Both the position numbers and the translations under genes were made by a program. Positions 20,626 to 34,978 of a stretch of 34,985 bases of DNA are shown here, one piece after another. The stretch covers positions 1 through 34,985 of the forward strand of contig JAHJVW010000142.1 in NCBI GenBank assembly GCA_018828585.1, given 5' to 3'. This stretch comes from Bacteroidota bacterium (GTDB lineage Bacteria; Bacteroidota; Bacteroidia; Sphingobacteriales; Sphingobacteriaceae). Each line of letters begins with the position of its first letter. Position 1 is the stretch's first letter. Below the pieces are notes generated by a model, which saw only the letters and a program-made list of their open reading frames with translations, was not told the origin of the DNA and did no database searches.

Positions 20626-23595
20626 ATGCAATTTAAACGTTTACTATCGCTTAGTTTGTTACTTATTTTCTTCACATTTGAGTTTGTTTCAGCTCAAACG
20701 AAAACGATTGAGGGAAAAGTTATAGACAAAAAAGACGGGTCACCATTAATTGGAGTTTCCGTAAAAGTTAAAAACACTAATTCAGGAACCGTTACTGATT
20801 TTAATGGAAAATTTCAATTGAAGGTGAATGACGGAGTAACTACTTTAGAAGTCTCTTATATAGGCTATAAAACAATAGAAGTAGCAATTGGAACCAAACG
20901 GTCTTATGAAATTGTTCTAGAAGCTGATAACACTTCTCTTAATGAGGTGGTGGTTGTAGGTTACGGAACTCAAAAAATTAAAGATGCAACAGGTTCTGTA
21001 GCTACATTGGGAACCAAAGACTTTAATAAGGGAGTTATTTCTTCTCCTGAACAATTACTTCAAGGAAGATTAGCAGGTGTTCAAGTAACTCCAGCTAGTG
21101 GGGAGCCAGGATCCGGGATTAATATTAACATTCGTGGTACAGGATCTATTCGTAGTGGTAACAATCCATTATTTGTTGTGGATGGAGTGCCATTAGATGG
21201 TGGTGGAACATCAGGTGGTTTTGATAGTGGTAGTGGAAGTTCATCTGCTAGAAATCCCCTTTCATTTTTAAATCCTTCTGATATTGAAAACATCAGTGTA
21301 TTAAAAGATGCATCTGCAGCGGCTATTTATGGCTCGAGAGGTGCAAATGGTGTTGTAATTATTACGACTAAAAAAGGATCTTCTGGTCAAGGTTTATCAT
21401 TTCTTGCAAGTACAAGCGTTTCATCAGCCGCAAAGAGGTATGATTTATTAAATGCTACACAATTCTATGCGGGTGTTTTAAATGCTGGAGCTAATCCAGT
21501 AGCTGTAGATTTTAAAGGAAATACCAATTGGCAAAATGAAATCTTTAGAACAGGTGTATCTCAAAATTATAACCTAGGATACGGTGGGTCTAATCAAACT
21601 TCTAACTATCGGGTATCTTTAGGATACGATAAAATAGGAGGTATTGTTAAAAATTCTTCTTTAGGTCGTTTAACTGGAAGATTGAATGGTTCAAAAAGAA
21701 TCCTAAATGATAAAGTCAAACTTGATTTATCCTTAACAGGTGCTAATGTGAAGAACATATATGCTCCTATATCTGATAATGCTGGCTTTCAAGGAAGTTT
21801 AGTAGGTGCTGCGATTCAGGCCAATCCTACTTATCCTGTAAAAAATGCGGATGGAACCTTCTTTTTCCCAGGTGGAGATTTTAGAAATCCGGCAGCTATG
21901 TTGGCTTACATAGATGATTCCGATAAAATCAATCGCTATTTAGCTAATATAAGTGCAACATGGACCATTACTAAAGGATTAAACTATAAAGCTACTTTAG
22001 GTCTCGATAATTCAAATAGTTTAAGACAAACTTTTCTAGATCCAAGGCTTCAAGGCTATACAGGTGGAAGTAATTTCAGAGGAATTAATATCAACCAAGT
22101 TACTGGTAATGGAAGAGGAGTTGAGCAAAACCTCAAGTTAAGATCAACCTTAGTAGAGCATACTTTAACCTACGATGTTAATGTAGCAAAAAATCCACTG
22201 ACTGCTTTAGTAGGATATTCATATCAGGACTTTAAAAGTAATGCATTTTATAATGTAGCCTCTGATACCAAAACGCCTAACGTATTAGTTAAAGATTTAA
22301 ATTCTTTCAAAACAAAAGTTCCAACTTTTGGAGATAGTACACGTAACGAACTTCAATCATTTTTTGGAAGATTAAATTATAACATTAGCGATAAGTACTT
22401 ATTAACCGCTACTGTTCGTGTAGATGGATCTTCTAAATTTGGAGCGAATAACAAATATGCAACCTTCCCAGCAATTGCTGCAAAGTGGAAATTGATGAAT
22501 GAAAACTTTATTCCTAAGAAGGTGTTTACTGATTTAAGTATAAGACTAAATTATGGTAAAACTGGTAATCAGGAATATCCAGGTGGGGCATCTTTAGCAA
22601 TTACACAAAGACAATTGGACGGATCTCAAGTTGAAATAAATGCGGCAAATCCTAATATTAAGTGGGAAACTACCACTCAGTATGGTGCAGGTTTAGATTT
22701 TGCTTTATTTGGAGGAAGATTAAGTAGTACAGTTGATTATTTTGACAAATCTACTACTGATCTTTTATTCTTGCAAGATTATGCTCAGCCAGCTGCATTT
22801 AGCAGAAGATGGACAAACTTACCTGGCGAAGTAATCAATAAAGGTTTAGAAATTGGTTTAGATGTTAAAGCGATTCAAGGGAATAAATTTAATTGGGAAG
22901 TTGCTTATAACATGACTTTTTTAAAAAATACAGTTAAGAATTTTGGAAGTAGCACAGTGATTACTGGAGACATAAATGGTCAAGGATTATCTGGTGCGTA
23001 TGTGCAAACTATACGTGATGGTTATCCATTATCATCTTTTAACTTACCAATTTTTGCAGGGTATGATAACAATGGATTTGCAATTTATCCAAATGATGCA
23101 GCATTTAAAGTGGTTGGAAGTGCTTTGCCAACATTTAACGCAGGTTTAACCAATAATTTTTCTTATGGAAAATGGAATGCAAGTTTCTTTATTAATGCAT
23201 CAACAGGATTTTATTTGTACAACAATACTGCAAATGCTTTGTTTACTAAAGGAAGTTTAAAGAACGGCCGAAACGTAACGGTTGATGTTGCAAGCAGTAA
23301 GGAAAATGCATTGAATGCACCGGAAGTTTCGACACGGTTTTTAGAAAAAGGCGATTTTGTAAGACTGTCGAATGCTTCATTAGGTTATACTTTTAATACA
23401 GCTAATTCAAAATCATTCAAAAATTTGAGATTATCCTTATCTGGTCAAAATCTGATATTAATCACTAATTATTCTGGTTTAGATCCCGAAGTTAATACCA
23501 ATAAAGCAAGAAATAATGTACCCTCTAGAGGTATAGATTATACTGCATATCCAAGTGCAAGAACATTTACATTGGGATTAAATGCGTCATTTTAA
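20626..23595 (+). CDS. SusC/RagA family TonB-dependent outer-membrane transporter
   Basis: This 989-residue protein is the barrel that imports oligosaccharides across the outer membrane with TonB energy. A signal peptide ends at VSA-Q (residue 23). A carboxypeptidase-regulatory-like domain (about 28-105) precedes the conserved LNEVVVVGYG segment (residues 105-114), and the plug domain follows with the SusC signature (LQGRLAGVQV, IRGTGSI, NNPLFVVDGVP, and ISVLKDASAAAIYGSRGANGV). The 22-strand barrel occupies the rest and ends in a terminal Phe (LNASF), as outer-membrane barrels do. susD starts 17 bp downstream. Substrate cannot be read directly; the GH65 gene nearby suggests an alpha-glucoside. 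The LacI-type palindrome upstream is the likely control site. Confidence 0.97.
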   Translation: MQFKRLLSLSLLLIFFTFEFVSAQTKTIEGKVIDKKDGSPLIGVSVKVKNTNSGTVTDFNGKFQLKVNDGVTTLEVSYIGYKTIEVAIGTKRSYEIVLEADNTSLNEVVVVGYGTQKIKDATGSVATLGTKDFNKGVISSPEQLLQGRLAGVQVTPASGEPGSGININIRGTGSIRSGNNPLFVVDGVPLDGGGTSGGFDSGSGSSSARNPLSFLNPSDIENISVLKDASAAAIYGSRGANGVVIITTKKGSSGQGLSFLASTSVSSAAKRYDLLNATQFYAGVLNAGANPVAVDFKGNTNWQNEIFRTGVSQNYNLGYGGSNQTSNYRVSLGYDKIGGIVKNSSLGRLTGRLNGSKRILNDKVKLDLSLTGANVKNIYAPISDNAGFQGSLVGAAIQANPTYPVKNADGTFFFPGGDFRNPAAMLAYIDDSDKINRYLANISATWTITKGLNYKATLGLDNSNSLRQTFLDPRLQGYTGGSNFRGININQVTGNGRGVEQNLKLRSTLVEHTLTYDVNVAKNPLTALVGYSYQDFKSNAFYNVASDTKTPNVLVKDLNSFKTKVPTFGDSTRNELQSFFGRLNYNISDKYLLTATVRVDGSSKFGANNKYATFPAIAAKWKLMNENFIPKKVFTDLSIRLNYGKTGNQEYPGGASLAITQRQLDGSQVEINAANPNIKWETTTQYGAGLDFALFGGRLSSTVDYFDKSTTDLLFLQDYAQPAAFSRRWTNLPGEVINKGLEIGLDVKAIQGNKFNWEVAYNMTFLKNTVKNFGSSTVITGDINGQGLSGAYVQTIRDGYPLSSFNLPIFAGYDNNGFAIYPNDAAFKVVGSALPTFNAGLTNNFSYGKWNASFFINASTGFYLYNNTANALFTKGSLKNGRNVTVDVASSKENALNAPEVSTRFLEKGDFVRLSNASLGYTFNTANSKSFKNLRLSLSGQNLILITNYSGLDPEVNTNKARNNVPSRGIDYTAYPSARTFTLGLNASF

Positions 23596-23612: not shown

Positions 23613-25151
23613 ATGAAAAATATAAATAAAAAAATTTTAATAACTTTTAGTGGGATACTCCTCGTAAGTATTTCAGGTTGTACGAAGTTAGACGAAGAGG
23701 TGTTAGGCTCAAAATTTGTAAATACTAGCACAACTTCTAGCACTGCTGATTTAGCAGGAGTATATAATGTGTTAAATGGCTTTACTGATCAAGCAAATTT
23801 ATATGCATTACAAGAACAGTCGACAGATGAAATGATGGGCCCAACACGTGGTACCGACTGGGGTGATTTTGGTACATGGAGAAAACTTCACCAACATACT
23901 TGGGATCCTTTCCATAATCAAATTAATTCTACATGGGATCAGTTAAACACTGGTGTTTATAGAGCAACTCAGGTTATCGCAGCAGCCTCAGATAATAAAA
24001 TTAAAGCAGAAGCTAGTTTTTTAAGGGCATTCTTTATGTTTCAAATGGTTGACCTTTTCGGTCAACAACCATTCAGAAATCCAACTGATTCTCCTGAAAC
24101 TAATCCGAAAGTGATGAGCCGTGTTGAAGCCACTGATTTTTTAATCAAAGACTTAGAATTTGCAGAAGCTAATTTACCTTTAGGATCTGCAGATAAGGCA
24201 AATAAAACAGCAGCACAAACACTATTAGCTAAAGTTTATTTGAATAAGGCCGTTTATACTGGCACCACTTTAGGTGGTCCTTACACCTTTGCAAAAGCTG
24301 ATATGGATAAAGCAGTAGATTATTGTAATAAAGTAATATCTACTTCAGGTAAGTCTTTAACGCCAACGTATTTTGATAACTTTGCGCCTGAAAATACAGC
24401 ATTATCCAAAGAAGAAATCTTTGTCATTGGAAATAAAGAAGGAGCAGCTATTGGAAACGTTCAAAATCGTTTCAGAATGACTTTACATTATAACCAAACT
24501 CCTAGTGGATGGAACGGCTTTACAACACTTGCTGACTTTTATCATTCTTTTGAAAGTACAGATCAAAGAATAGGAGGAAGCTATCCTGGATTCACAGATA
24601 AAGTAGGAATGAAGTCTGGTTTCTTAATTGGTCAGCAATACGGACCTAATAATGAAGTATTAAAAGATAGAAGCGGAAATAACTTAGTTTTTACCGAGAA
24701 TGTAAATCTATTGTTCGCAAAAGAAGCTGACGGAATCCGTGTGATTAAATACATTCCTAAGCCAAATGCTAAAAATGATGGAATTATTGAACAAGCTGCA
24801 AATGACTATATTTTCTTAAGATTCGCTGATGTTTTATTAATGAAAGCGGAAGGTATTTTAAGAGGTGGTACTGACGCTCAAGGTAAAACAGCGCTACAAT
24901 TAGTTAATGATTTGAGATCTACCAGAGGAGCTTCTCTATTTACTTCTTTAGATGTTAAAAACTTATTAGCTGAAAGAGGAAGAGAATTATATTGGGAAGG
25001 TTGGAGAAGAAATGACATGATTCGTTTTGGAGTATTTAATGATCCTGTTGATCAAAGAGCTACAAAATCAGCTCCAAGCAGAACATTATTTCCAATTCCA
25101 CAAAGAGCTGTGGATACCAATCCAAACCTGAAACAAAATCCAGGATATTAA
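23613..25151 (+). CDS. SusD/RagB family surface nutrient-binding lipoprotein
   Basis: SusD-type proteins form the lid on SusC and bind the glycan at the cell surface. The 512-residue protein has a lipoprotein signal with SISGC (lipid Cys23) followed by acidic residues (TKLDEE), consistent with surface export in this phylum. The N-terminal SusD-like TPR region includes KAEASFLRAFFMFQMVDLFG, and the C-terminal region has FLRFADVLLMKAEG, LLAERGRELYWEGWRRNDMIRFG and the usual ending with LFPIP and NPNLKQNPGY. It is 17 bp after susC. A hairpin at 25186-25211 follows and may lower expression of downstream genes. Confidence 0.97.
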   Translation: MKNINKKILITFSGILLVSISGCTKLDEEVLGSKFVNTSTTSSTADLAGVYNVLNGFTDQANLYALQEQSTDEMMGPTRGTDWGDFGTWRKLHQHTWDPFHNQINSTWDQLNTGVYRATQVIAAASDNKIKAEASFLRAFFMFQMVDLFGQQPFRNPTDSPETNPKVMSRVEATDFLIKDLEFAEANLPLGSADKANKTAAQTLLAKVYLNKAVYTGTTLGGPYTFAKADMDKAVDYCNKVISTSGKSLTPTYFDNFAPENTALSKEEIFVIGNKEGAAIGNVQNRFRMTLHYNQTPSGWNGFTTLADFYHSFESTDQRIGGSYPGFTDKVGMKSGFLIGQQYGPNNEVLKDRSGNNLVFTENVNLLFAKEADGIRVIKYIPKPNAKNDGIIEQAANDYIFLRFADVLLMKAEGILRGGTDAQGKTALQLVNDLRSTRGASLFTSLDVKNLLAERGRELYWEGWRRNDMIRFGVFNDPVDQRATKSAPSRTLFPIPQRAVDTNPNLKQNPGY

Positions 25152-25231: not shown

Positions 25232-28200
25232 ATGTTTAAATACTCAATTTTTTATCTTCCATTACTTTGTTTTGGCTTAATATCTTGTCATAAAAAACAA
25301 AATAAATTATTCACACTAAAAGACAACAAAGAGATAGGTATAAACTTTATTAACCAGTTACAGGATAAGCAAGGGACAAATGTCTTCACTTTTAGAAATT
25401 ATTATAATGGAGGTGGAGTTGCAATTGGAGATGTTAACAACGATGGATTAAACGATATTTATCTAACATCTAACCAAGAAGGTAACCAACTTTTAATCAA
25501 TAAAGGAAATTGGAAGTTTGAGAATGTTGCAGATAAGGCAGGCGTAAAAGGAACAAAATATTGGAGTACTGGAGTGACCATGGTAGATATTAATCATGAC
25601 GGTTGGTTGGATATTTATGTGTGTAACAGTGGTAATGCAAATGGTAGTGAAACTGAAAATGAGCTTTTTATAAATCAACGCAACGGAACCTTTAAAGATG
25701 AAGCCAAAGCCTATGGATTGGCAGATGCAGGACTTTCTACTCATGCCGTGTTTTTTGATTATGATTTAGATGGGGATCTAGATTGCTATGTATTAAATAA
25801 TTCTTTTAGACCAGTCGGAAGTTTTGATTTTACTCAAAATTTAAGAAATGTTGTAAATGAGTTAGGAGGGGATAGGTTATATAGAAATGATGGAGGTCAC
25901 TTTGTTAATGTAAATAAAGAAGCTGGAATTTATTCTAGTGACATTGGTTTTGGATTAGGAGTTTCCGTGTGTGACATTAATCAGGACGGGTATCCAGACA
26001 TTTACGTATCTAACGATTTTTTCGAGAGGGATTACCTTTACATCAATCAAAAGAATGGGACTTTTAAAGAAGATATTCAGTCCCAAATGGGCCATTTAAG
26101 TTTGGCATCTATGGGTTCGGATGTTGGAGATATTAATAACGATGGTAAATATGATTTATTTACAACTGAAATGCTACCCGAAGGAGATTATCGCTTAAAA
26201 ACAATGACACTTTTTGAAACCTATGATGTAAACAAGTCTAAACAAAATGATGGATATTATAACCAGTATATGCAAAATTGTTTGCAGCTGAATAATGGTG
26301 ATAATACCTTTTCTGAAATTGCATTTTATGCAGGGGTGGCAGCAACCGATTGGAGCTGGGGAGCATTATTTATGGACTTTGATAATGATGGATGGAAGGA
26401 TATTTTTGTGTCTAATGGTATTTTTAAAGATTTAACAAATCAGGATTATATTGAATTTTTATCAAGTAAAGAAAACATGTCAAAAGTGGCTGACGGTAAA
26501 AAGTTTGATTATAAAAAATTTACCGATAAAATGAATTCGACCCCTTTAGCTAATTATGCTTTCATAAACAATAAGAATTTAACATTTACCAACAAAGCAC
26601 AAGAGTTAGGTTTAGATAAAGCATCTTTTAGTAATGGTGCAGCTTATGGTGATTTAGATAATGATGGAGATAATGATTTAGTGGTTAATAATGTAAACAT
26701 GCCCTTATTTGTTTATCAAAATAATTCAAATCATATCAATACCAATCATTACCTCGGTATAAAATTTAAAGGAGATAGTTTGAACACTTTCGGGGTGGGT
26801 AGTACCATTAAAATTTTCCATCAAGATTCATCAGAAATTTATTATCATCAACCTGTTCATGGCTTCCAAAGCAGTACTGCTCCAAATGTTTTAACTATGG
26901 GTGTTGGGCAGCATCAAAAAATTGATTCTTTAGAAGTGATTTGGCCAAAAGGGAACTATCAGACAATTAAAAATTTAAAAACAGATAGTACCTATACAAT
27001 TGATATTAGAAATGCTACGAAAAGGTATAATTATGAACAAGTACCTGCTAAAAAAATGTTTTCTGAGGTCACAAAAAGCTTGTTTCCCTCTATCCCTAAG
27101 CATGAGGAGGATGATTTTGTAGATTTTGATCAAGAAAGAATGATGCTTCAAATGCTGTCTCATCAAAATCCATATTTGGTGAAAGGTGACATCAATAATG
27201 ACGGTCTTGATGATTTTTATATGAGTAGCTCAAAAGGCTTTAATGCTGCCATTTATATTCAACAAAAAAACGGACATTTTTTAAAATATATACCAGATGA
27301 TTTTAAGCATCAAAATTACTTAGAGTGTGCTGGGGCAGTTTTTGGAGATTTTGACGGTGATGGAGATCAGGATTTAATTGTAAGCTACGGTGGTAATCAG
27401 GAAACAATTGGTACCAAAGTATTATATCCAAAATTTTATGAAAATAATGGGCAGGGTAAGTTTACTTGGAGAAAAGATAAAAACATCAAGGTAGAAATCA
27501 ACGCTTCTACCATTGTCAGCTCAGATTTTGATCATGATGGAGATTTAGATTTATTTATTGGAAGTAGAAATGTAGTTGGAAGTTATGGAAGTGCACCAAA
27601 TTCTTACGTTTTTGAAAACGATGGAAAAGGAAATTTCAAGGATATCTCTGCGAAAGTCTTAGGAAAACATGCCCAAATGGGAATGGTTACAGACGCCAAG
27701 TGGGCAGATTTAGATGGAAATGGATATGAGGATTTAATTGTGGTGGGCAACTGGATGGGGATTTATATTTTTAATAATGACCACGGTAAGTTCACTCTAA
27801 ATAATACGCTAGAAAACTATAAGGGGTGGTGGAGTAGTGTTGCAGTAAATGATATAAATGGAGATGGGAAACTAGACATCATAGCTGGGAATTTAGGTTT
27901 AAATTCTAAATTTAAAGCTTCTGAAAAAGAGCCCATGAAAATTTATATTAAAGATTTTGATGACAATGGGACTAAAGAGTGCATCACAACGCTTTATAAA
28001 TCAGATCATAAGGCTTATGTTTTTCATTTAAAACAGGATATGGTAATGCAAATGCCTATTCTGAAAAAAAGATTTTTGAGGTACGAGGACTATGCAGGAA
28101 AATCTGCCGATGTTGTTTTGACTCCTGAAATGACGAAAGATGCTGAGGTACACGAAATCAATACCCTTAGCTCAGGTGTATTCTTTAACAAAGGAGCAAA

Positions 28201-28528
28201 TCAATTTGGATGGAAAGTGTTTCCTTATCAAGCTCAGCTATCTAGTGTAAATAGCATTTTGATTGATGATGTGAATGGTAGTAAACAATTAATTCTTACT
28301 GGAAACTCATGGGATTTTAAGCCAGAAGTAGGACGATTAGACGCCAATTATGGAGTAATGTACCAATATCAAAAGAATGGCTTTCATTTTATCCCTAATC
28401 AAATCAGCGGTATAAAAATTTCAGGTCAGGTGAGGTCTGCAATATCAGTTCAAGGAAGTAATCATCAGAAAACCTATTTATTTGGTCGTAATAATGATAC
28501 AACCTTAGCCTTTAAATTCAATAAATAG
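25232..28528 (+). CDS. FG-GAP/VCBS repeat lipoprotein with ASPIC/UnbV domain (CRTAC1-like), copy 1
   Basis: This 1098-residue lipoprotein (LISC, lipid Cys19) contains 13 calcium-type motifs of the form D-x-[DN]-x-[DN]-G-x-x-[DE], the first at D67-D75. Seven precede and six follow an ASPIC/UnbV domain at about 507-592 (FGVGSTIKIFHQ ... LEVIWPKGNYQ). The simplest reading is a seven-bladed beta-propeller, a small ASPIC domain, and a second propeller. Such proteins are frequent beside SusCD pairs in Bacteroidota, but their biochemical role is not established; surface glycan binding in place of SusE/SusF is my inference. It lies 80 bp after susD and 28 bp before a paralogue with the same plan. No catalytic motif is visible. 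Confidence 0.88.
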   Translation: MFKYSIFYLPLLCFGLISCHKKQNKLFTLKDNKEIGINFINQLQDKQGTNVFTFRNYYNGGGVAIGDVNNDGLNDIYLTSNQEGNQLLINKGNWKFENVADKAGVKGTKYWSTGVTMVDINHDGWLDIYVCNSGNANGSETENELFINQRNGTFKDEAKAYGLADAGLSTHAVFFDYDLDGDLDCYVLNNSFRPVGSFDFTQNLRNVVNELGGDRLYRNDGGHFVNVNKEAGIYSSDIGFGLGVSVCDINQDGYPDIYVSNDFFERDYLYINQKNGTFKEDIQSQMGHLSLASMGSDVGDINNDGKYDLFTTEMLPEGDYRLKTMTLFETYDVNKSKQNDGYYNQYMQNCLQLNNGDNTFSEIAFYAGVAATDWSWGALFMDFDNDGWKDIFVSNGIFKDLTNQDYIEFLSSKENMSKVADGKKFDYKKFTDKMNSTPLANYAFINNKNLTFTNKAQELGLDKASFSNGAAYGDLDNDGDNDLVVNNVNMPLFVYQNNSNHINTNHYLGIKFKGDSLNTFGVGSTIKIFHQDSSEIYYHQPVHGFQSSTAPNVLTMGVGQHQKIDSLEVIWPKGNYQTIKNLKTDSTYTIDIRNATKRYNYEQVPAKKMFSEVTKSLFPSIPKHEEDDFVDFDQERMMLQMLSHQNPYLVKGDINNDGLDDFYMSSSKGFNAAIYIQQKNGHFLKYIPDDFKHQNYLECAGAVFGDFDGDGDQDLIVSYGGNQETIGTKVLYPKFYENNGQGKFTWRKDKNIKVEINASTIVSSDFDHDGDLDLFIGSRNVVGSYGSAPNSYVFENDGKGNFKDISAKVLGKHAQMGMVTDAKWADLDGNGYEDLIVVGNWMGIYIFNNDHGKFTLNNTLENYKGWWSSVAVNDINGDGKLDIIAGNLGLNSKFKASEKEPMKIYIKDFDDNGTKECITTLYKSDHKAYVFHLKQDMVMQMPILKKRFLRYEDYAGKSADVVLTPEMTKDAEVHEINTLSSGVFFNKGANQFGWKVFPYQAQLSSVNSILIDDVNGSKQLILTGNSWDFKPEVGRLDANYGVMYQYQKNGFHFIPNQISGIKISGQVRSAISVQGSNHQKTYLFGRNNDTTLAFKFNK

Positions 28529-28556
28529 TTCATTTTAACTATAAATTACTAATACG

Positions 28557-31500
28557 ATGAAACAAAGGATACATTTTTTATGGATATTGATGGGTATTTT
28601 AAGTGCTTGTCAATCGAAGAAGAGTGATTCCTTAGCTCGGATATTTACAAAGTTAGACTCAACAAAAACGCAGGTAATGTTCAATAATAAGATTACAGAA
28701 ACTGATAGTCTTAATATTTTGGACTATCTGTATTTTTATAATGGAGCGGGCGTTGCTGCCGCTGATTTTAATAATGACGGATTACAAGATTTATTTTTTG
28801 TTTCTAATCAAGGAGAAAATCAATTATATATTAATAAGGGGGAGTTAACTTTCGAGGATATTACTAAAAATTCGGGACTAGGTGGGCGTCAAGAAAACTG
28901 GAAAACGGGTGTAACCATTGTAGATATCAATAATGATGGTTATCCAGATATCTATGTATCTGTAGTTTCTGGCTATCGAAGTTTTAAAGGGCATAACCTA
29001 CTTTTTATCAATAATGGAGATCTAACATTTACCGAAAAGTCTAAAGAATACGGTATCGACTTCGCAGGGCTTTCTACACAAGCTTCCTTTTTTGATTATG
29101 ATAAAGATGGAGATTTAGATTTATTGGTGCTTACCCATTCGGTACATAGTAATGATACTTATGGCGATTCAACCCTTCGCTTTAAATACAATGAAATTGC
29201 TGGTGACCATTTATTTCGAAACGATAACGGAAAGTTTTCTGATGTAACAAAAGGTTCTGGCATTTATGCTGCACCAATCGGTTACGGTCTGGGTATCAGC
29301 ATAGCGGATTTAAATAATGATGGTTGGGATGATATTTATATCAGTAACGATTTTTTCGAACAGGATTATTATTATATCAATCAGAAAAATGGAAAGTTTA
29401 AAGAAAGTCTAAAAAGTGCTTTTGGACACACCTCCTTGTTTTCTATGGGTAATGCTTTGAATGATATCAATAAGGACGGGTATGTGGACGTATTATCTAC
29501 AGATATGTTACCCGAAGATCTTCATGCTTTAAAATCGACCATAAATGATGAATCATTAGACATTTATAATCAAGAAGTACAAAGTGGTTATTATTATCAA
29601 TACTCCAAAAATAGCCTACAATTGAATGTGGGAAATGGGATGAAGTTTGTTGATATTAGTCTTTACTCGGGCATATCTGCAACCGATTGGACTTGGTCTC
29701 CATTGATCGAAGATTTTAATTTGGATGGTCATAAAGACATCTTCTTTTCTACCGGAATAAAAAAGAGGTTGAATGATATGGATTATCTCAAATACCTTGG
29801 TGACCAGAATGTATTTAAAAACTTTGGTACCGACCGTAAATTTGATCGGAACAAAATCAACCTCATGCCTGATGGACGGGTCCATAATTACCTATATGAA
29901 GGAAAAGACTTATTGAAATTTCAGGATATCTCTGCTGTTAACGGGATGTCTGATTTGTCTTGCTCAAATGGGGCGTTAATGGTTGATTTGGATAATGATG
30001 GAGATAAAGAGATTGTTACTAATAATCTCAATCAAGCTGCTTTTATTTATCGAAATAATACCATTGAAAACGATAAAAATAAAAAATTAAGTTTTTTGAG
30101 TATAAAAGTGAATTATAATGCGACCAATAGAAATGGCATCGGCACAAAGATATTTTTAAAGTCAGATTCTTCTGTTGATCATCAAGAGATACAAACCAGT
30201 TCAGCCTTTCAAAGTAGTCAGAATAATACACTTAATTTCGCATTTAAACCAAACGAAAAGCCGCAAGAAATGCTGGTGATTTGGCCTGATAATTCTTATC
30301 AAGTCTTTAAAAGTTTCAATTTAAATAAGACATCAATTCTAAAATATGATGGAAATAGGGTAAATAAACCAGTTCAGGATATATCTACTATAATTTCATC
30401 CTTTATTAAACCCAAATCACAGTTTAATTATCAAAACATTGATGCCCGACTTATTGCACAAGTAAAAACTAACCAAACGATAGATTTTAATTATTACTAT
30501 CTGTTGCCTCATACTTATTTACAACTACCTCCGCCAATTGCTACGGGTGATATTAATGGCGATGGTTATGATGATATTTATGTTGGAGGAATTGAAGGTG
30601 AGGATAAATACATGTTGATGGGCCAAAAAGATGGATCCTTTAAAAAAGGAAAAGTTTTCGCTCAAAATTTCAATGATGCAGATGCTCAGGCAGCTTTTGT
30701 TGATTTAAATCAGGATGGAAAGTTAGACTTAGTGGTTAGCAATGCAGATCATCCCTTTGCAGAAGTAAAAGATATTAAACCTTTGCGGGTTTATTTGAAC
30801 AGAGGTAAAAACCAATTCGACGTGATCCCCATGCCTAATGCTCATGCTTTAACCTCTAAAATGTGCTTTATTGATATAAATCATGATGGTTTAAAAGATA
30901 TTTATTTGGCTGGGGCAGTTTCATTTCGGGATTATACCCGATCAATGGAAGCCGTAATTTTGCTGAATCGAGGTAATGGTAAATTTGAATTAGGAGCAAA
31001 TCAGCAATTTAAAGAATTAAAAAATATCCAATTTGTCAAGAATTTATTAGTTTCAGATATCAATAAGGATGGATTTGATGATCTTTTGATTAGTGCGGAA
31101 TGGCAGCCTTTACAAATCTTTTTAAATAGTAAAAGTGGCCTAAAAAAATGGTCACCTAAGTCTCTGGAAAATTTAAAGGGTTGGTGGCAGTCGGCGATTG
31201 TTACTGATTTAAACCATGATGGTCAACCAGATTTAGTTGCAGGGAATTGGGGATTAAATAATAAGTTCAATGTAAATCGTGATCAACCGTTAAATGCATA
31301 TCATAGTGATTTAGATGATGACGGGAAAAATGATTTGATCTTATCTTATTTTTATAAAGGGAAACATTATCCTTTTAGGCCTAAAAATGATTTGGAAACG
31401 GAACTTCCATACCTGAAGAAGAAATGGTTAAGCTATCGAGAAATGTCAGAAAAAACTACGGAGGAAGTGTTTGAAGGAAAACTTCCAGAAAAAGATTATT

Positions 31501-31868
31501 TAAGTGCTAATAGTTTTGAGAGTATTTATATCAGTGATTTTCTTCATAAAAATGAAATTACTGCTTTACCTTATTTATACCAACAGGCACCTATCATGGG
31601 TTTACAAATTCAAAAAAATAATGAAGTGATTGTTAACGGAAATTTTTGGGGTACCATTCCTTATGAAGGTAAGTACGATGCTTTGGGCTTAGCCACTTTA
31701 AAATATGATTTAAATAAAAAGGAAATAGCAGCTCCAGTTTACTGGATTAATCCAGCTATAAATTTCAATGAGATTGATCAGTTTCAATCAATCAAAATGG
31801 GTAAAAAAGAAAATTATGTAGCTTTAACCAGTGATGGAAGGATATTTATACTTTCAGAAAATCCATAG
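28557..31868 (+). CDS. FG-GAP/VCBS repeat lipoprotein with ASPIC/UnbV domain (CRTAC1-like), copy 2
   Basis: This 1103-residue lipoprotein (LSAC, lipid Cys18) has the same layout as its upstream neighbour: seven calcium-type motifs, an ASPIC/UnbV domain at about 512-598 (NGIGTKIFLKSD ... MLVIWPDNSYQ), then six more motifs. The motifs correspond one to one with those of copy 1, and shared blocks such as STQASFFDYD, SNDFFEQDYYYINQKNG, LKGWWQS and AGNWGLNNKF show common ancestry, although the sequences have diverged clearly. The pair is therefore an old tandem duplication, possibly with split ligand roles. The 28-bp gap implies one transcript with copy 1. The 3' end faces the minus-strand SRPBCC gene with 12 bp between stops and no clear terminator. 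Confidence 0.88.
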   Translation: MKQRIHFLWILMGILSACQSKKSDSLARIFTKLDSTKTQVMFNNKITETDSLNILDYLYFYNGAGVAAADFNNDGLQDLFFVSNQGENQLYINKGELTFEDITKNSGLGGRQENWKTGVTIVDINNDGYPDIYVSVVSGYRSFKGHNLLFINNGDLTFTEKSKEYGIDFAGLSTQASFFDYDKDGDLDLLVLTHSVHSNDTYGDSTLRFKYNEIAGDHLFRNDNGKFSDVTKGSGIYAAPIGYGLGISIADLNNDGWDDIYISNDFFEQDYYYINQKNGKFKESLKSAFGHTSLFSMGNALNDINKDGYVDVLSTDMLPEDLHALKSTINDESLDIYNQEVQSGYYYQYSKNSLQLNVGNGMKFVDISLYSGISATDWTWSPLIEDFNLDGHKDIFFSTGIKKRLNDMDYLKYLGDQNVFKNFGTDRKFDRNKINLMPDGRVHNYLYEGKDLLKFQDISAVNGMSDLSCSNGALMVDLDNDGDKEIVTNNLNQAAFIYRNNTIENDKNKKLSFLSIKVNYNATNRNGIGTKIFLKSDSSVDHQEIQTSSAFQSSQNNTLNFAFKPNEKPQEMLVIWPDNSYQVFKSFNLNKTSILKYDGNRVNKPVQDISTIISSFIKPKSQFNYQNIDARLIAQVKTNQTIDFNYYYLLPHTYLQLPPPIATGDINGDGYDDIYVGGIEGEDKYMLMGQKDGSFKKGKVFAQNFNDADAQAAFVDLNQDGKLDLVVSNADHPFAEVKDIKPLRVYLNRGKNQFDVIPMPNAHALTSKMCFIDINHDGLKDIYLAGAVSFRDYTRSMEAVILLNRGNGKFELGANQQFKELKNIQFVKNLLVSDINKDGFDDLLISAEWQPLQIFLNSKSGLKKWSPKSLENLKGWWQSAIVTDLNHDGQPDLVAGNWGLNNKFNVNRDQPLNAYHSDLDDDGKNDLILSYFYKGKHYPFRPKNDLETELPYLKKKWLSYREMSEKTTEEVFEGKLPEKDYLSANSFESIYISDFLHKNEITALPYLYQQAPIMGLQIQKNNEVIVNGNFWGTIPYEGKYDALGLATLKYDLNKKEIAAPVYWINPAINFNEIDQFQSIKMGKKENYVALTSDGRIFILSENP

Positions 31869-31880
31869 AAGAATTTAAAA

Positions 31881-32816
31881 TTAAAATATAGGATAATAAA
31901 CTTTTGTTTGCCATTTAGAAGAATCAGGATTTAGATTTCTATCAGTAATCATCAATTCAAATGGTATCGCAGGAGAGGTCAACTTAAAATCTTTCATGTA
32001 GTTTTTAAGCTGATCAAATGCCAGTTGAATTGATTGATGACCGCCAGTAACGTTGGCATAAAGTATATTACCTGGTATCATTCGGTTTACTAGCATCTTA
32101 TCTTTAGGCGGGATATACTTGTCAATTGGGATGGCAACCGTAATCACATAAGTTTGATACCCAGTATTGGTAATATTTAACATAGGATAATTGGTTGGCT
32201 CAGCATTTTTTTCCTTTACATATTGTTGAAGGCTTGCTAATAAAGTTGATGCTAATTTTGGATCCGGTGGAGAGGAAAGTGTTCTTTGAGTAGTAATTAA
32301 AATGGTGTCTTTGACTGTGCTTCTTTGAATATCATAGGTGTAGATGTTTTTGGGCTTAATCGCGAACCTTGCAAATTTATTTAATAAGGTGTCTATCTCA
32401 TGCTGACTTTTTTTAGCATTCATAAAGATAGATATCATGCGAATAGGATTTAAGGTTTTTTGAACATGTTGTTCCCAAACGATTTCTACAATGCTTTTTG
32501 GTAAAAGTTTACTGGTGATAATACCTTCTGATGAATTTGATAAAATTACAGTGGCAGCGTTAAATCCTGTTGCATGAAATTCAAAAATTTGGTTGTGAAA
32601 TGAAAATTTAGTAGAGTCAGAAGTATGAGTTTGAATTGTTTGATTAGGCCACCATTTTAATTTGTATTTATTGGTTAAAAGATAATCATATACAATTCTT
32701 TCACTCGAATCAATATAAATTACTTTTTTGATGGTATGAGGAGTAAGAATAAAAATAAGAATAAATGCAGAAAAAGCCAACAATAAGGGTATAATCAACA
32801 AAAAGGGTTTCTTCAC
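31881..32816 (-). CDS. Membrane-anchored SRPBCC protein with GyrI-like effector-binding domain
   Basis: The 311-residue protein begins with one hydrophobic segment (about 4-25), then a region resembling a START/SRPBCC fold (about 30-145: VIYIDSSERIVYDYLLTNKYKLKWWP) and a C-terminal region resembling GyrI-like or AraC effector-binding domains (about 150-311, ending FELMITDRNLNPDSSKWQTKVYYPIF). There is no DNA-binding domain. Both folds bind hydrophobic or small ligands, so an envelope-located ligand-binding role is plausible; no substrate can be named. The start is GTG (32816); no ATG fits the signal segment better. It is convergent with copy 2 of the propeller lipoproteins and divergent from the GH65 gene, so it interrupts the carbohydrate locus on the opposite strand. 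Confidence 0.65.
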   Translation of the reverse strand: MKKPFLLIIPLLLAFSAFILIFILTPHTIKKVIYIDSSERIVYDYLLTNKYKLKWWPNQTIQTHTSDSTKFSFHNQIFEFHATGFNAATVILSNSSEGIITSKLLPKSIVEIVWEQHVQKTLNPIRMISIFMNAKKSQHEIDTLLNKFARFAIKPKNIYTYDIQRSTVKDTILITTQRTLSSPPDPKLASTLLASLQQYVKEKNAEPTNYPMLNITNTGYQTYVITVAIPIDKYIPPKDKMLVNRMIPGNILYANVTGGHQSIQLAFDQLKNYMKDFKLTSPAIPFELMITDRNLNPDSSKWQTKVYYPIF

Positions 32817-32926: not shown

Positions 32927-34978
32927 ATGACCAATTTTACAAACATTCGAAAACTAACTCGTATAATTTTATTTTTGCTTTTGCCAATTTCTGTAAACGC
33001 ACAAACAAACAATGACCCATGGTTAGTCAAAGCAAATTCTATTGATCCCTCAAATTATTATGGGGAAACTGTAGCCAATGGAATGATTGGAATTGTAAGT
33101 TCTGCCGAACCATTTAAAACAAAAGATGTCGTATTAAATGGAGCATTTGACTTATACGGAAGAGGCCGAGTGAGCAATATCTTAAAAAGTTTTAACTTTT
33201 TAAATATGTATTTGGAGGTAAATGGTTCTCGCATAGAAAATTTTAATCAGGTCACAAACATGCAACAAACGTTGGATATGAAGCATGGAAATCTCAACAC
33301 AAAACTTGATTATCAAGATAAAGCGAGTATTTCTTACACCTATTATGCATTAAGGCAATTGCCCTATTGTGGTTTAGTTGATGTAGTAATTACAGCTAAG
33401 AAAGATATCGAAATAACAGCTGCTAGTGTTATGGAGGCCCCTGATATGCTTAAAGATGTTCAAAATTATTATAATGAAATAGATAGGCCACATGTAAAAA
33501 TTAGCTTGCTGACATCTCAAGCTAAAAGTCCTACTGGAAAGCTTATCCTAGCTTCTTCCACCTCGTTTATGTTTGATGAAGAGCATGGGCAAGAACCTGC
33601 AATCATCCATGAGATGTGGGATAATAACATGCATCTTGCAAAATTTAAAAAGAAAATCAAAGCTGGTGAAAGCTATCACTATACGATTGTGGGAAGTAGC
33701 ATTACGAGTGCTCATCATGATGACCCGCTTAATGAAGCAGAAAGGTTGACCATATTTGCGAAACTGGAAGGTCATGATAGATTGCTTAAATTTCATAACG
33801 AGGCTTGGGACAAATTATGGGAGAGTGATATTCAAATTGAAGGTGATCCACAAACACAGCAAGAAGTACATAGTATGATGTATCATCTATATGCTTTTGC
33901 TAGAGCAGGAACCGCTTATTCTTTATCCCCTATGGGATTGAGTGGGTTAGGATATAATGGTCATGCTTTTTGGGATACAGAATTATGGATGTATCCAGCG
34001 ATGTTGATGCTTCATCCTGACATCGCTAAATCTTTAATTCAATATCGTTTTGACCGATTAAAAGAGGCAAAACATAATGCTTTTTCTCATGGATATAAGG
34101 GTGCAATGTTTCCTTGGGAAAGTGCCATGTCTGGCAATGAAGAAACGCCAGTATGGGCATTAAGTGGACCTTTTGAGCATCATATAACAGCTGATATTGG
34201 AATTGCTGCTTGGAATTATTATGCGGTAACACAAGATAAGCAATGGTTAAGAGAAGTGGGTTGGCCTTTATTAAAAGAAACGGCAGATTTTTGGGCGAGT
34301 AGAGTAGAACGAAATGGAGTTGGGAACTTCGCTATTAAAAATGTAGTAGCAGCCGATGAATGGGCAGAGAATGTAGATAATAATGCTTTCACCAATGCGG
34401 CGGCAAAAGCGAATTTAAACGATGCAGTTAAGGCCGCTAAAATTTTAGAAATTACTCCGGATGATGATTGGGCTTTGGTTGCAAAAAATATACCGATATT
34501 AAAGTTTGAAAGTGGCGTCACCAAAGAACATGCTACCTATAAAGGTGAAGACATCAAACAAGCGGATGTAAACCTATTAGCTTATCCATTACATGAAGTT
34601 TCTGACCCGGAATTAATTGGAAAAGATTTAGACTATTACCAACAAAGAGTAGGTGATGGCCCAGCCATGACAGATGCTATTTTTGCAATTCTACACGTCC
34701 GTTTAGGAAATCCAGATAAGGGACTATCTTCATTCAAACAGGGCTATCGCCCGAATAAAAGACCTCCATTTGGTGTATTAGCTGAAACTGCTACCGGAAA
34801 TAATCCTTATTTTGCGACTGGTGCAGGAGGAATGATACAGGCCATGTTAAGTGGCTTTGGAGGTCTTGAAATTACAGATACAGGAATTAAGCAATTACCT
34901 GTTAAGTTACCAGGATCATGGAAGTCGTTAACAATCAAAGGAATTGGAGTAAGTAAGGAAACTTATCAAGTGAAATAA
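32927..34978 (+). CDS. Secreted glycoside hydrolase family 65 protein, hydrolase type
   Basis: GH65 enzymes act on alpha-glucosides such as kojibiose, nigerose, maltose or trehalose, mostly as phosphorylases. This 683-residue protein has a signal peptide cleaved near NA-QT (residue 25) with no lipobox, so it should be periplasmic. An N-terminal beta-sandwich (about 30-280) precedes the (alpha/alpha)6 barrel. The general acid is Glu478 in ADEWAENVDNNAFTN, matching the family DE.-ENVDNN.YTN site. Glu620 in LAETATGNNPYF stands where a base is expected in GH65 hydrolases such as the Flavobacterium johnsoniae kojibiose hydrolase; I see no phosphorylase-type Ser-rich phosphate loop (the corresponding area reads VGDGPAMTDAIF). 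It diverges from the SRPBCC gene across 110 bp. Linkage specificity is open. Confidence 0.9.
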   Translation: MTNFTNIRKLTRIILFLLLPISVNAQTNNDPWLVKANSIDPSNYYGETVANGMIGIVSSAEPFKTKDVVLNGAFDLYGRGRVSNILKSFNFLNMYLEVNGSRIENFNQVTNMQQTLDMKHGNLNTKLDYQDKASISYTYYALRQLPYCGLVDVVITAKKDIEITAASVMEAPDMLKDVQNYYNEIDRPHVKISLLTSQAKSPTGKLILASSTSFMFDEEHGQEPAIIHEMWDNNMHLAKFKKKIKAGESYHYTIVGSSITSAHHDDPLNEAERLTIFAKLEGHDRLLKFHNEAWDKLWESDIQIEGDPQTQQEVHSMMYHLYAFARAGTAYSLSPMGLSGLGYNGHAFWDTELWMYPAMLMLHPDIAKSLIQYRFDRLKEAKHNAFSHGYKGAMFPWESAMSGNEETPVWALSGPFEHHITADIGIAAWNYYAVTQDKQWLREVGWPLLKETADFWASRVERNGVGNFAIKNVVAADEWAENVDNNAFTNAAAKANLNDAVKAAKILEITPDDDWALVAKNIPILKFESGVTKEHATYKGEDIKQADVNLLAYPLHEVSDPELIGKDLDYYQQRVGDGPAMTDAIFAILHVRLGNPDKGLSSFKQGYRPNKRPPFGVLAETATGNNPYFATGAGGMIQAMLSGFGGLEITDTGIKQLPVKLPGSWKSLTIKGIGVSKETYQVK

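Follow-up and report, generated by a model that had tools for sequence, protein, structure and literature searches.

Two adjacent genes in a Sphingobacteriaceae genome encode giant double-propeller lipoproteins of a family that apparently forms a widespread, undescribed branch of the SusCD systems through which Bacteroidota chiefly take up glycans. The genes, for protein A (25232..28528, + strand, 1098 amino acids [aa]) and protein B (28557..31868, + strand, 1103 aa), lie directly 3′ of an adjacent SusC-SusD pair in a 34,985-nucleotide stretch of DNA (GenBank assembly GCA_018828585.1, contig JAHJVW010000142.1), hereafter the window. The window is an entire contig (G000:C127) of a 3.58-Mb host genome, and the nearest named relatives in the family tree are Mucilaginibacter. 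On balance, we lean toward reading A and B as paired accessory lipoproteins of SusCD-type sugar uptake, which dock with a haloperoxidase homolog and hold substrate.

Both proteins begin with a lipobox (LISC ending at Cys19 in A, LSAC ending at Cys18 in B) and share one architecture, FG-GAP propeller, ASPIC/UnbV domain, and FG-GAP propeller, as supported by Pfam, AlphaFold2, and the match to CRTAC1. FG-GAP_3 (PF13517, cut-off 26.9) matches A at 244.7 bits and B at 230.6 bits, and the ASPIC/UnbV domain (PF07593, cut-off 23.4) was located at residues 521-589 of A (26792..26998, +; 52.8 bits for the protein) and 527-591 of B (30135..30329, +; 35.7 bits for the protein). Each protein contains 13 copies of the strict calcium-type motif Dx[DN]x[DN]Gxx[DE], seven N-terminal and six C-terminal of ASPIC. 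Shuffled versions of A and B contain a mean of 0.043 and 0.028 motifs (maximum 2 in 1000 shuffles each), and the remaining open reading frames of the window (8745 aa) contain none. A and B are 35% identical across 1075 alignment columns, and their motifs align one to one. The first-pass annotation, made from the sequence of the window alone, had described just such a tandem lipoprotein pair, with 13 motifs each split seven and six around ASPIC, and the reading frames, lipoboxes, motif counts, and alignment bear it out.

The same annotation had called the proteins double propellers, which is now backed by fold matches and by structure predictions of A and B run singly. AlphaFold2, given 43 aligned sequences for A and 35 for B, returned confident models (A: predicted local distance difference test [pLDDT] 91.2, predicted TM-score [pTM] 0.92; B: pLDDT 87.4, pTM 0.89). 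In a Foldseek search, the top solved structure for A was murine CRTAC1 (E 3e-26). When the predicted models were aligned to CRTAC1 (9etn_A) with VIA-align, residues 25-594 of A gave Z 38.9 (root-mean-square deviation [rmsd] 2.4 over 457 residues, 25% identity) and residues 26-623 of B gave Z 37.5 (rmsd 2.8 over 472 residues, 20% identity). CRTAC1 was also the sole match among solved structures to the sequence of A by itself; a profile of A found CRTAC1 at E 1.7e-26, with integrin alpha chains next (best E 1.4e-9) and a secreted esterase as a weak further match.

The C-terminal propellers, at residues ~605-1098 of A (27044..28525, +) and ~622-1103 of B (30420..31865, +), lie beyond the CRTAC1 match and align with other proteins. 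By VIA-align, A 606..1097 matches the EPTP propeller of LGI1 (Z 31.6) and A 604..1098 matches aldos-2-ulose dehydratase (Z 29.4), while the C-terminal propeller of B matches aldos-2-ulose dehydratase (Z 27.8) and a KICSTOR subunit (Z 27.5). Because these matches are at 9-13% identity, they are evidence of fold alone. Outside the calcium-type motifs, W374, W376, N887, N891, and Q1002 are kept in both clades of the family; His624 is kept in ~90% of both clades but is absent from window B. Judging from the models, each protein joins a half that resembles CRTAC1, made of a propeller and the ASPIC domain, to an additional FG-GAP propeller. By descent, A and B are CRTAC1-related FG-GAP/ASPIC proteins and not SusE.

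The family extends well beyond the window. At E 1e-100, members were found in 115 of 395 sampled Bacteroidota genomes, in a survey that scored only two candidates per genome, and full-length members (>590 bits) were found in 12 of the 41 genomes of a search among relatives, the window's own included. Members outside Bacteroidota occur in a Calditrichota metagenome-assembled genome (L089) and on plasmid 2 of Gemmatirosa kalamazoonensis (Gemmatimonadota; L249), where the order SusC-SusD-member-haloperoxidase homolog-member-SusC-SusD suggests cross-phylum transfer. In one annotated record, a member carries the NCBI label "VCBS repeat-containing protein" and is followed by two hypothetical genes and then a "vanadium-dependent haloperoxidase." An NCBIfam scan found no full-length model for A, B, or one further member. 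The short domain model XAC2610 is passed by B (37.8 bits) and by neither of the other two. We found no paper linking UnbV, FG-GAP, or VCBS to SusC, SusD, TonB-dependent transport, or polysaccharide utilization in the open literature, which leaves most subscription papers uncovered. The one paper found that brings vanadium haloperoxidases together with SusD is the genome announcement of Arenibacter sp. C-21 (PMC5064120). Within that literature and NCBIfam, the earlier suggestion of an undescribed class stands. One member, at L048:8430-12995, is 1521 aa long with ~400 extra N-terminal residues; its genome (G032) has no SusD-like_3 match and no haloperoxidase homolog.

A and B belong to two old lineages. 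In a tree of 154 members with a midpoint root, they fall on opposite sides of the deepest branch, which has a support of 100. A recent tandem duplication is therefore ruled out, and the pair, which had been described as a divergent duplicate, goes back instead to an ancient split. Both lineages are present in 35 of 42 multi-copy loci (those with more than one member of 1000-1300 aa), compared with a shuffled mean of 24.6, and only 2 of 10000 shuffles were as high. The lineage orders are AB (18 loci), AAB (9), AA (7), BAB (6), ABB (1), and BA (1). For these counts, tree row names were restored by input order, as none of the 154 rows could be matched by sequence; the resulting clade of 50 rows has the size seen in the original tree and includes window B. 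As far as sequences tell, A and B are an ancient, co-retained, family-wide pair. That the two lineages persist side by side, mostly in the same order, suggests two subunits with different jobs.

To quantify the association with SusCD, we recounted neighbors in six frames at 161 loci: 21 from relatives (window included), 80 named loci, which are those most similar to A, and 60 sampled loci. The sampled loci are non-random, being one per genome from 60 of the 115 positive genomes, mostly by score order, and the three sets may share species (the SusCs of L052 and L137 are nearly identical), so loci are not fully independent. Loci with <2.5 kb on the relevant side were dropped (20 of 161 upstream, 21 of 161 downstream). 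Of 141 evaluable loci, 96 have a SusD gene directly upstream (≤700 bp away on the same strand) and 121 have one within 6 kb, a count that still misses the SusD-like_2 type SusD of L039. For the sampled loci alone, the figures are 40 and 52 of 60. From the density of SusD-like_3 matches (13 in the 3.58 Mb of the window's genome, 35 in ~4.8 Mb of G018), we estimate that chance would place a SusD this near very roughly 7 to 14% of the time. In four loci (L063, L074, L093, and L098), the SusCD pair is inverted yet still adjoins the family. The association in this neighborhood survey, a check that the first-pass annotation had proposed, is strong.

The SusC partners carry the same signal. In the window, SusC/RagA (20626..23595, +, 989 aa; TIGR04056 696.7 bits, cut-off 368) is followed by the SusD/RagB lipoprotein (23613..25151, +, 512 aa; PF07980 70.1 bits, PF14322 45.8 bits), and the cluster has the makeup of a SusCD operon (polysaccharide-utilization-locus-like), including a carbohydrate-active enzyme of family GH65. 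In a SusC tree, built from 100 that are partnered and a further 50 from four genomes, 12 label changes were required versus 42.0 with shuffled labels, and none of 500 shuffles was as low. About two thirds of the partner SusCs, the window's among them, fall within one clade with a support of 100, in which 66 of the 68 members are partnered with the family. The remaining partnered SusCs are found in other parts of the tree, including 17 that make up a further, entirely partnered clade. The two unpartnered SusCs of the large clade (G038 and G225) each have a partnered locus ~15 to 20 kb away and a SusE-domain gene after SusD, as is seen at L251 and L252; in G225, GH13, GH53, and GH65 genes lie beyond it. 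The family thus holds the position that SusE holds in its sister lineage, in agreement with the earlier proposal that A and B stand in the place of SusE/SusF.

SusE itself is present in 27 of 32 genomes with the family, and the nearest is 7.5 kb from any listed family gene. These distances compare 26 of 45 SusE entries against an incomplete family gene list, the other 19 being judged by eye to be on another contig or far away. In seven genomes (G038, G225, G161, G169, G185, G273, and G331), a SusE and a listed family gene are separated by 7.5 to 32 kb, and this coexistence leaves unsupported the idea that SusE was swapped out within one complex. The two SusCD kinds may sit side by side as if for neighboring substrates. 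Family loci within 7.5 to 18 kb of SusE genes occur on G038:C15, G225:C1, G185:C12, and G331:C1.

A further partner, closely linked to the family and omitted from the first-pass annotation, is a vanadium-haloperoxidase-family protein. Many loci encode a ~440-450 aa protein downstream with a PAP2 match, and 57 of 72 such homologs have a lipobox. A profile of nine of them matches the Zobellia vanadium-dependent haloperoxidase 4cit near full length at E 1.6e-180, with the next best match at 1.8e-10, which weakens the reading of the partner as a PAP2 phosphatase. Among 69 aligned homologs (>300 bits and 380-520 aa), K335, R342, H371, R421, H427, W332, and F364 (L042 numbering) are present in all 69, S369 in 67, and G370 in 64, the other five having Ala, as does the homolog of the window's genome. 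By comparison with vanadium chloroperoxidase, we take the conserved residues to be vanadate or halide ligands. Full-length similarity and the retained active-site residues place the partner, at the level of sequence, in the vanadium iodoperoxidase family, and it would be an oxidase rather than a phosphatase.

Its linkage was counted in 12 genomes that we chose and that all have the family, with a profile built from proteins beside the family, which makes the co-occurrence count partly circular. In these, 20 of 23 homologs >300 bits lie within 10 kb of a family gene (five matches <120 bits excluded); when all 28 matches at E 1e-20 are counted, the number is again 20. Seen from the family side, 20 of the 29 clusters have a homolog within 10 kb. 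Among the 41 genomes of the search among relatives, homologs >500 bits occur in 9 of 12 with the family versus 0 of 29 without; at E 1e-20, the counts are 10 of 12 and 2 of 29. Across the recounted loci, a homolog lies ≤8 kb downstream in 69 of 140. Three loci (L040, L149, and L158) have the family and a haloperoxidase homolog with no SusD seen in the stretch examined. At L051:7476-9023 (G018), a glucuronyl-esterase-like gene follows the family locus in place of the haloperoxidase homolog.

The window lacks a haloperoxidase homolog, seemingly because the contig ends 7 bases after the GH65 gene. Elsewhere in the same genome, a homolog is encoded at G000:C58:51022-52344 (locus L254), 40 bp from the end of contig C58, and it aligns with 4cit over residues 9-445 of 447 (E 5.8e-136). 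This homolog, a trehalase gene, and four further genes on C58 are collinear with the relative L032, in which GH65, haloperoxidase homolog, and trehalase genes are consecutive. The end of C58 probably continues the window operon, across a C127-C58 junction that we propose from this gene order.

The window's GH65 gene (32927..34978, +; NCBIfam NF053734 1140.1 bits, cut-off 800), which is its last gene before the contig end at 34985, is of the kojibiose-hydrolase (alpha-1,2-glucosidase) type. GH65 lies within 8 kb in 18 of 73 multi-copy versus 0 of 67 single-copy evaluable loci, and strong trehalase matches accompany three GH65 loci (L032, L080, and L094) and contig C58, while L091 has a trehalase with no GH65 in view. 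Other family neighbors include GH13, GH97, GH127, GH30, GH32, GH1, sugar kinases, and permeases, from a scan of 75 of the 83 genes listed (at most two per locus) among 114 downstream genes, with families taken from the first 25 of 80. This variety of sugar enzymes indicates that the family is not tied to a single sugar, the alpha-glucoside set being one specialization. For the window, the substrate would probably be an alpha-glucoside with kojibiose- or trehalose-type bonds; we guess from the GH65/trehalase pair that the two bond types, alpha-1,2 and trehalose-type, occur in one substrate. We assume that FjGH65A, the kojibiose hydrolase of Flavobacterium johnsoniae, belongs to NF053734, in which case it is of the same GH65 type as the window enzyme. 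Alternatively, the substrate could, by analogy, be 1,2-branched dextran oligosaccharides, as proposed for FjGH65A (PMC8626586). In the available text of that source, FjGH65A has a signal peptide, is periplasmic or extracellular, and is discussed together with dextranase gene products, and the main text as available mentions neither "SusD" nor "gene cluster" (PMC8626586).

On which side of the outer membrane A and B reside is less clear. In the Bacteroidota studied for it, acidic residues after the lipid-bearing Cys mark surface export, and the minimal signal in Capnocytophaga is a polar or basic residue followed by two acidic ones, according to the available part of the source (PMC5080379). 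After its Cys, A reads CHKKQNK and B reads CQSKKSD, both basic and with no acidic pair, while their own SusD reads CTKLDEEVLGS and has the acidic signal; the rule comes from other Bacteroidota, and we know of no trial of it in Sphingobacteriaceae. Where our lipobox rule recognized the protein (77 of 131 SusDs, 198 of 263 family members, and 57 of 72 haloperoxidase homologs, to which these counts are limited), at least two acidic residues at +2 to +7 were found in 63 of 77 SusDs, 71 of 198 family members, and 17 of 57 haloperoxidase homologs. An adjacent acidic pair was found in 36, 40, and 8 of these, respectively. The earlier description of A and B as surface proteins is therefore not supported, as both lack the export signal of their own SusD, though more than a third of family members have two acidic residues.

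Taking these observations together, A and B would most likely dock, in a putative complex, on SusC/SusD assembled at the outer membrane, and would most likely hold substrate together with the nearby-encoded vanadium-haloperoxidase-family lipoprotein. The 13 calcium-type loops would probably bind calcium and stiffen each protein, and the imported alpha-glucoside would probably be cut by GH65 and trehalase. We infer both the role of A and B, that of an accessory binding and docking module, and the membrane face on which they sit. Several observations weigh against such a model. Eight of the 60 sampled loci, and 20 of the 141 evaluable ones, have no SusD gene within 6 kb. Genome G027, in which a family member adjoins a haloperoxidase homolog, yields no PF14322 match and SusC matches that all fall below the cut-off, and G032 has a member with no PF14322 match, no SusC over the cut-off, and no haloperoxidase homolog. 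In the 12 chosen genomes, 9 of 29 clusters have no haloperoxidase homolog within 10 kb, and about half of the recounted loci have none within 8 kb downstream. GH65 and trehalase are confined to a subset of loci and do not define the family.

Two more specific readings differ on the membrane face. In one, A and B are scaffolds that face the periplasm, anchored beneath SusC in the outer membrane's inner leaflet, where they receive imported sugar and hold the haloperoxidase homolog and glycosidases; we regard this as a serious possibility, though short of probable. It agrees with the missing acidic signal in A and B and in 40 of the 57 haloperoxidase homologs with a lipobox, with the three loci that pair the family and the haloperoxidase homolog with no SusD in view, and with the signal peptide and reported location of the related FjGH65A. 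However, at least two acidic residues are present in 37 of 112 and 34 of 86 family members (two sets), and the export signal may differ in this bacterial group. In the other, A and B act like SusE/SusF or other surface glycan-binding proteins and catch glycan at the cell surface for SusCD, which we rate a little lower, as possible but doubtful. The gene position after SusD, as for SusE in sister operons, and the lipoboxes speak for it, as does BtuG, a surface propeller lipoprotein that caps the TonB-dependent transporter BtuB, in the available text of its source (PMC10404256). The basic post-Cys sequences of A and B speak against it, not decisively given where the rule comes from, and acidic residues at +2 to +7 are far commoner in SusDs than in the family.

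Three other proposals seem unlikely. The most ambitious joins A, B, SusCD, and the iodoperoxidase homolog as parts of a single machine in the outer membrane, in which sugar uptake would be coupled to halide or peroxide chemistry that depends on calcium; it would underlie iodine uptake by Arenibacter sp. C-21 and be kept in terrestrial bacteria for a related oxidation. Iodine uptake by that strain depends on glucose, oxygen, calcium, and peroxide, and its genome encodes at least five iodoperoxidase homologs and 39 SusD proteins (PMC5064120), but we consider the proposal a long shot. It is slightly more improbable that A and B are enzymes acting on an oxidized sugar, with the haloperoxidase homolog in the same redox pathway. 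This would fit the likeness of the C-terminal propeller to the N-terminal propeller of fungal aldos-2-ulose dehydratase (4a7y/4a7k, at the Z scores given above) and non-calcium residues conserved in both clades, such as those named above, but identity is 9-10%, LGI1 scores higher for A, His624 is missing in window B, and propellers match many proteins. We give the least credence to A and B as unrelated passengers, adhesins or cell-envelope proteins merely traveling with SusCD operons. Integrin alpha chains are the next sequence matches behind CRTAC1, and SusD is absent from some loci, but the order recurs across the phylum, SusC partners are clade-specific, the two lineages are co-retained, and the linkage is kept when SusCD is inverted. 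We keep the accessory-lipoprotein reading.

Between B and GH65, the opposite strand encodes a 311-aa protein (31881..32816, -) with no Pfam or NCBIfam match. It is a recurring neighbor, and its profile relatives, some with a GyrI-like ligand-binding domain, adjoin 16 clusters, the window among them; the relative in L075 matches PF06445 at 28.5 bits (cut-off 26). Of 59 evaluable sampled loci, 17 have such a relative next to a family gene. These counts come from a gene listing whose overlap filter hid genes in some loci (e.g., L153 and L249). A regulatory or ligand-binding part within the cluster is possible. At five other loci, a similar-looking 188-215 aa protein is encoded between family genes (L056:9396-9959, L057:9414-9989, L061:5132-5707, L066:9399-9980, and L082:9354-9998), and the two scanned (L056 and L061) have no Pfam match.

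Given its spread over the phylum, a family that often takes the place of SusE, keeps mainly to one SusC lineage of its own, and is linked to a haloperoxidase-family protein would mark a large unrecognized SusCD branch. It also places bacterial iodoperoxidase homologs from marine and terrestrial groups in a genomic context in which their physiological role becomes directly testable.

Among known systems, CRTAC1 (9etn) shares the N-terminal FG-GAP propeller and ASPIC domain of A and B; however, it is an animal protein with a single propeller and no SusCD context, whereas A and B have a second propeller past residues 594 and 623, respectively. SusE/SusF and surface glycan-binding proteins are likewise encoded directly after SusD, but A and B have no PF14292 among their Pfam matches at E 0.001 and no acidic export signal. 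The vanadium haloperoxidase and iodoperoxidase of Zobellia galactanivorans (4cit and 4usz) resemble the downstream partner near end to end, and not A or B. Compared by description only, BtuG is, like A and B, a lipoprotein propeller beside a TonB-dependent transporter in Bacteroidota; it differs in being one seven-bladed propeller that serves as a lid, whereas the A/B loci have SusD, two propellers, and an ASPIC domain. Among the VIA-align matches listed for A and B, BtuG is absent, which carries no weight for or against a relation. By analogy, and as far as the available text of its source goes, BtuG would be the nearest mechanistic precedent that we found (PMC10404256).

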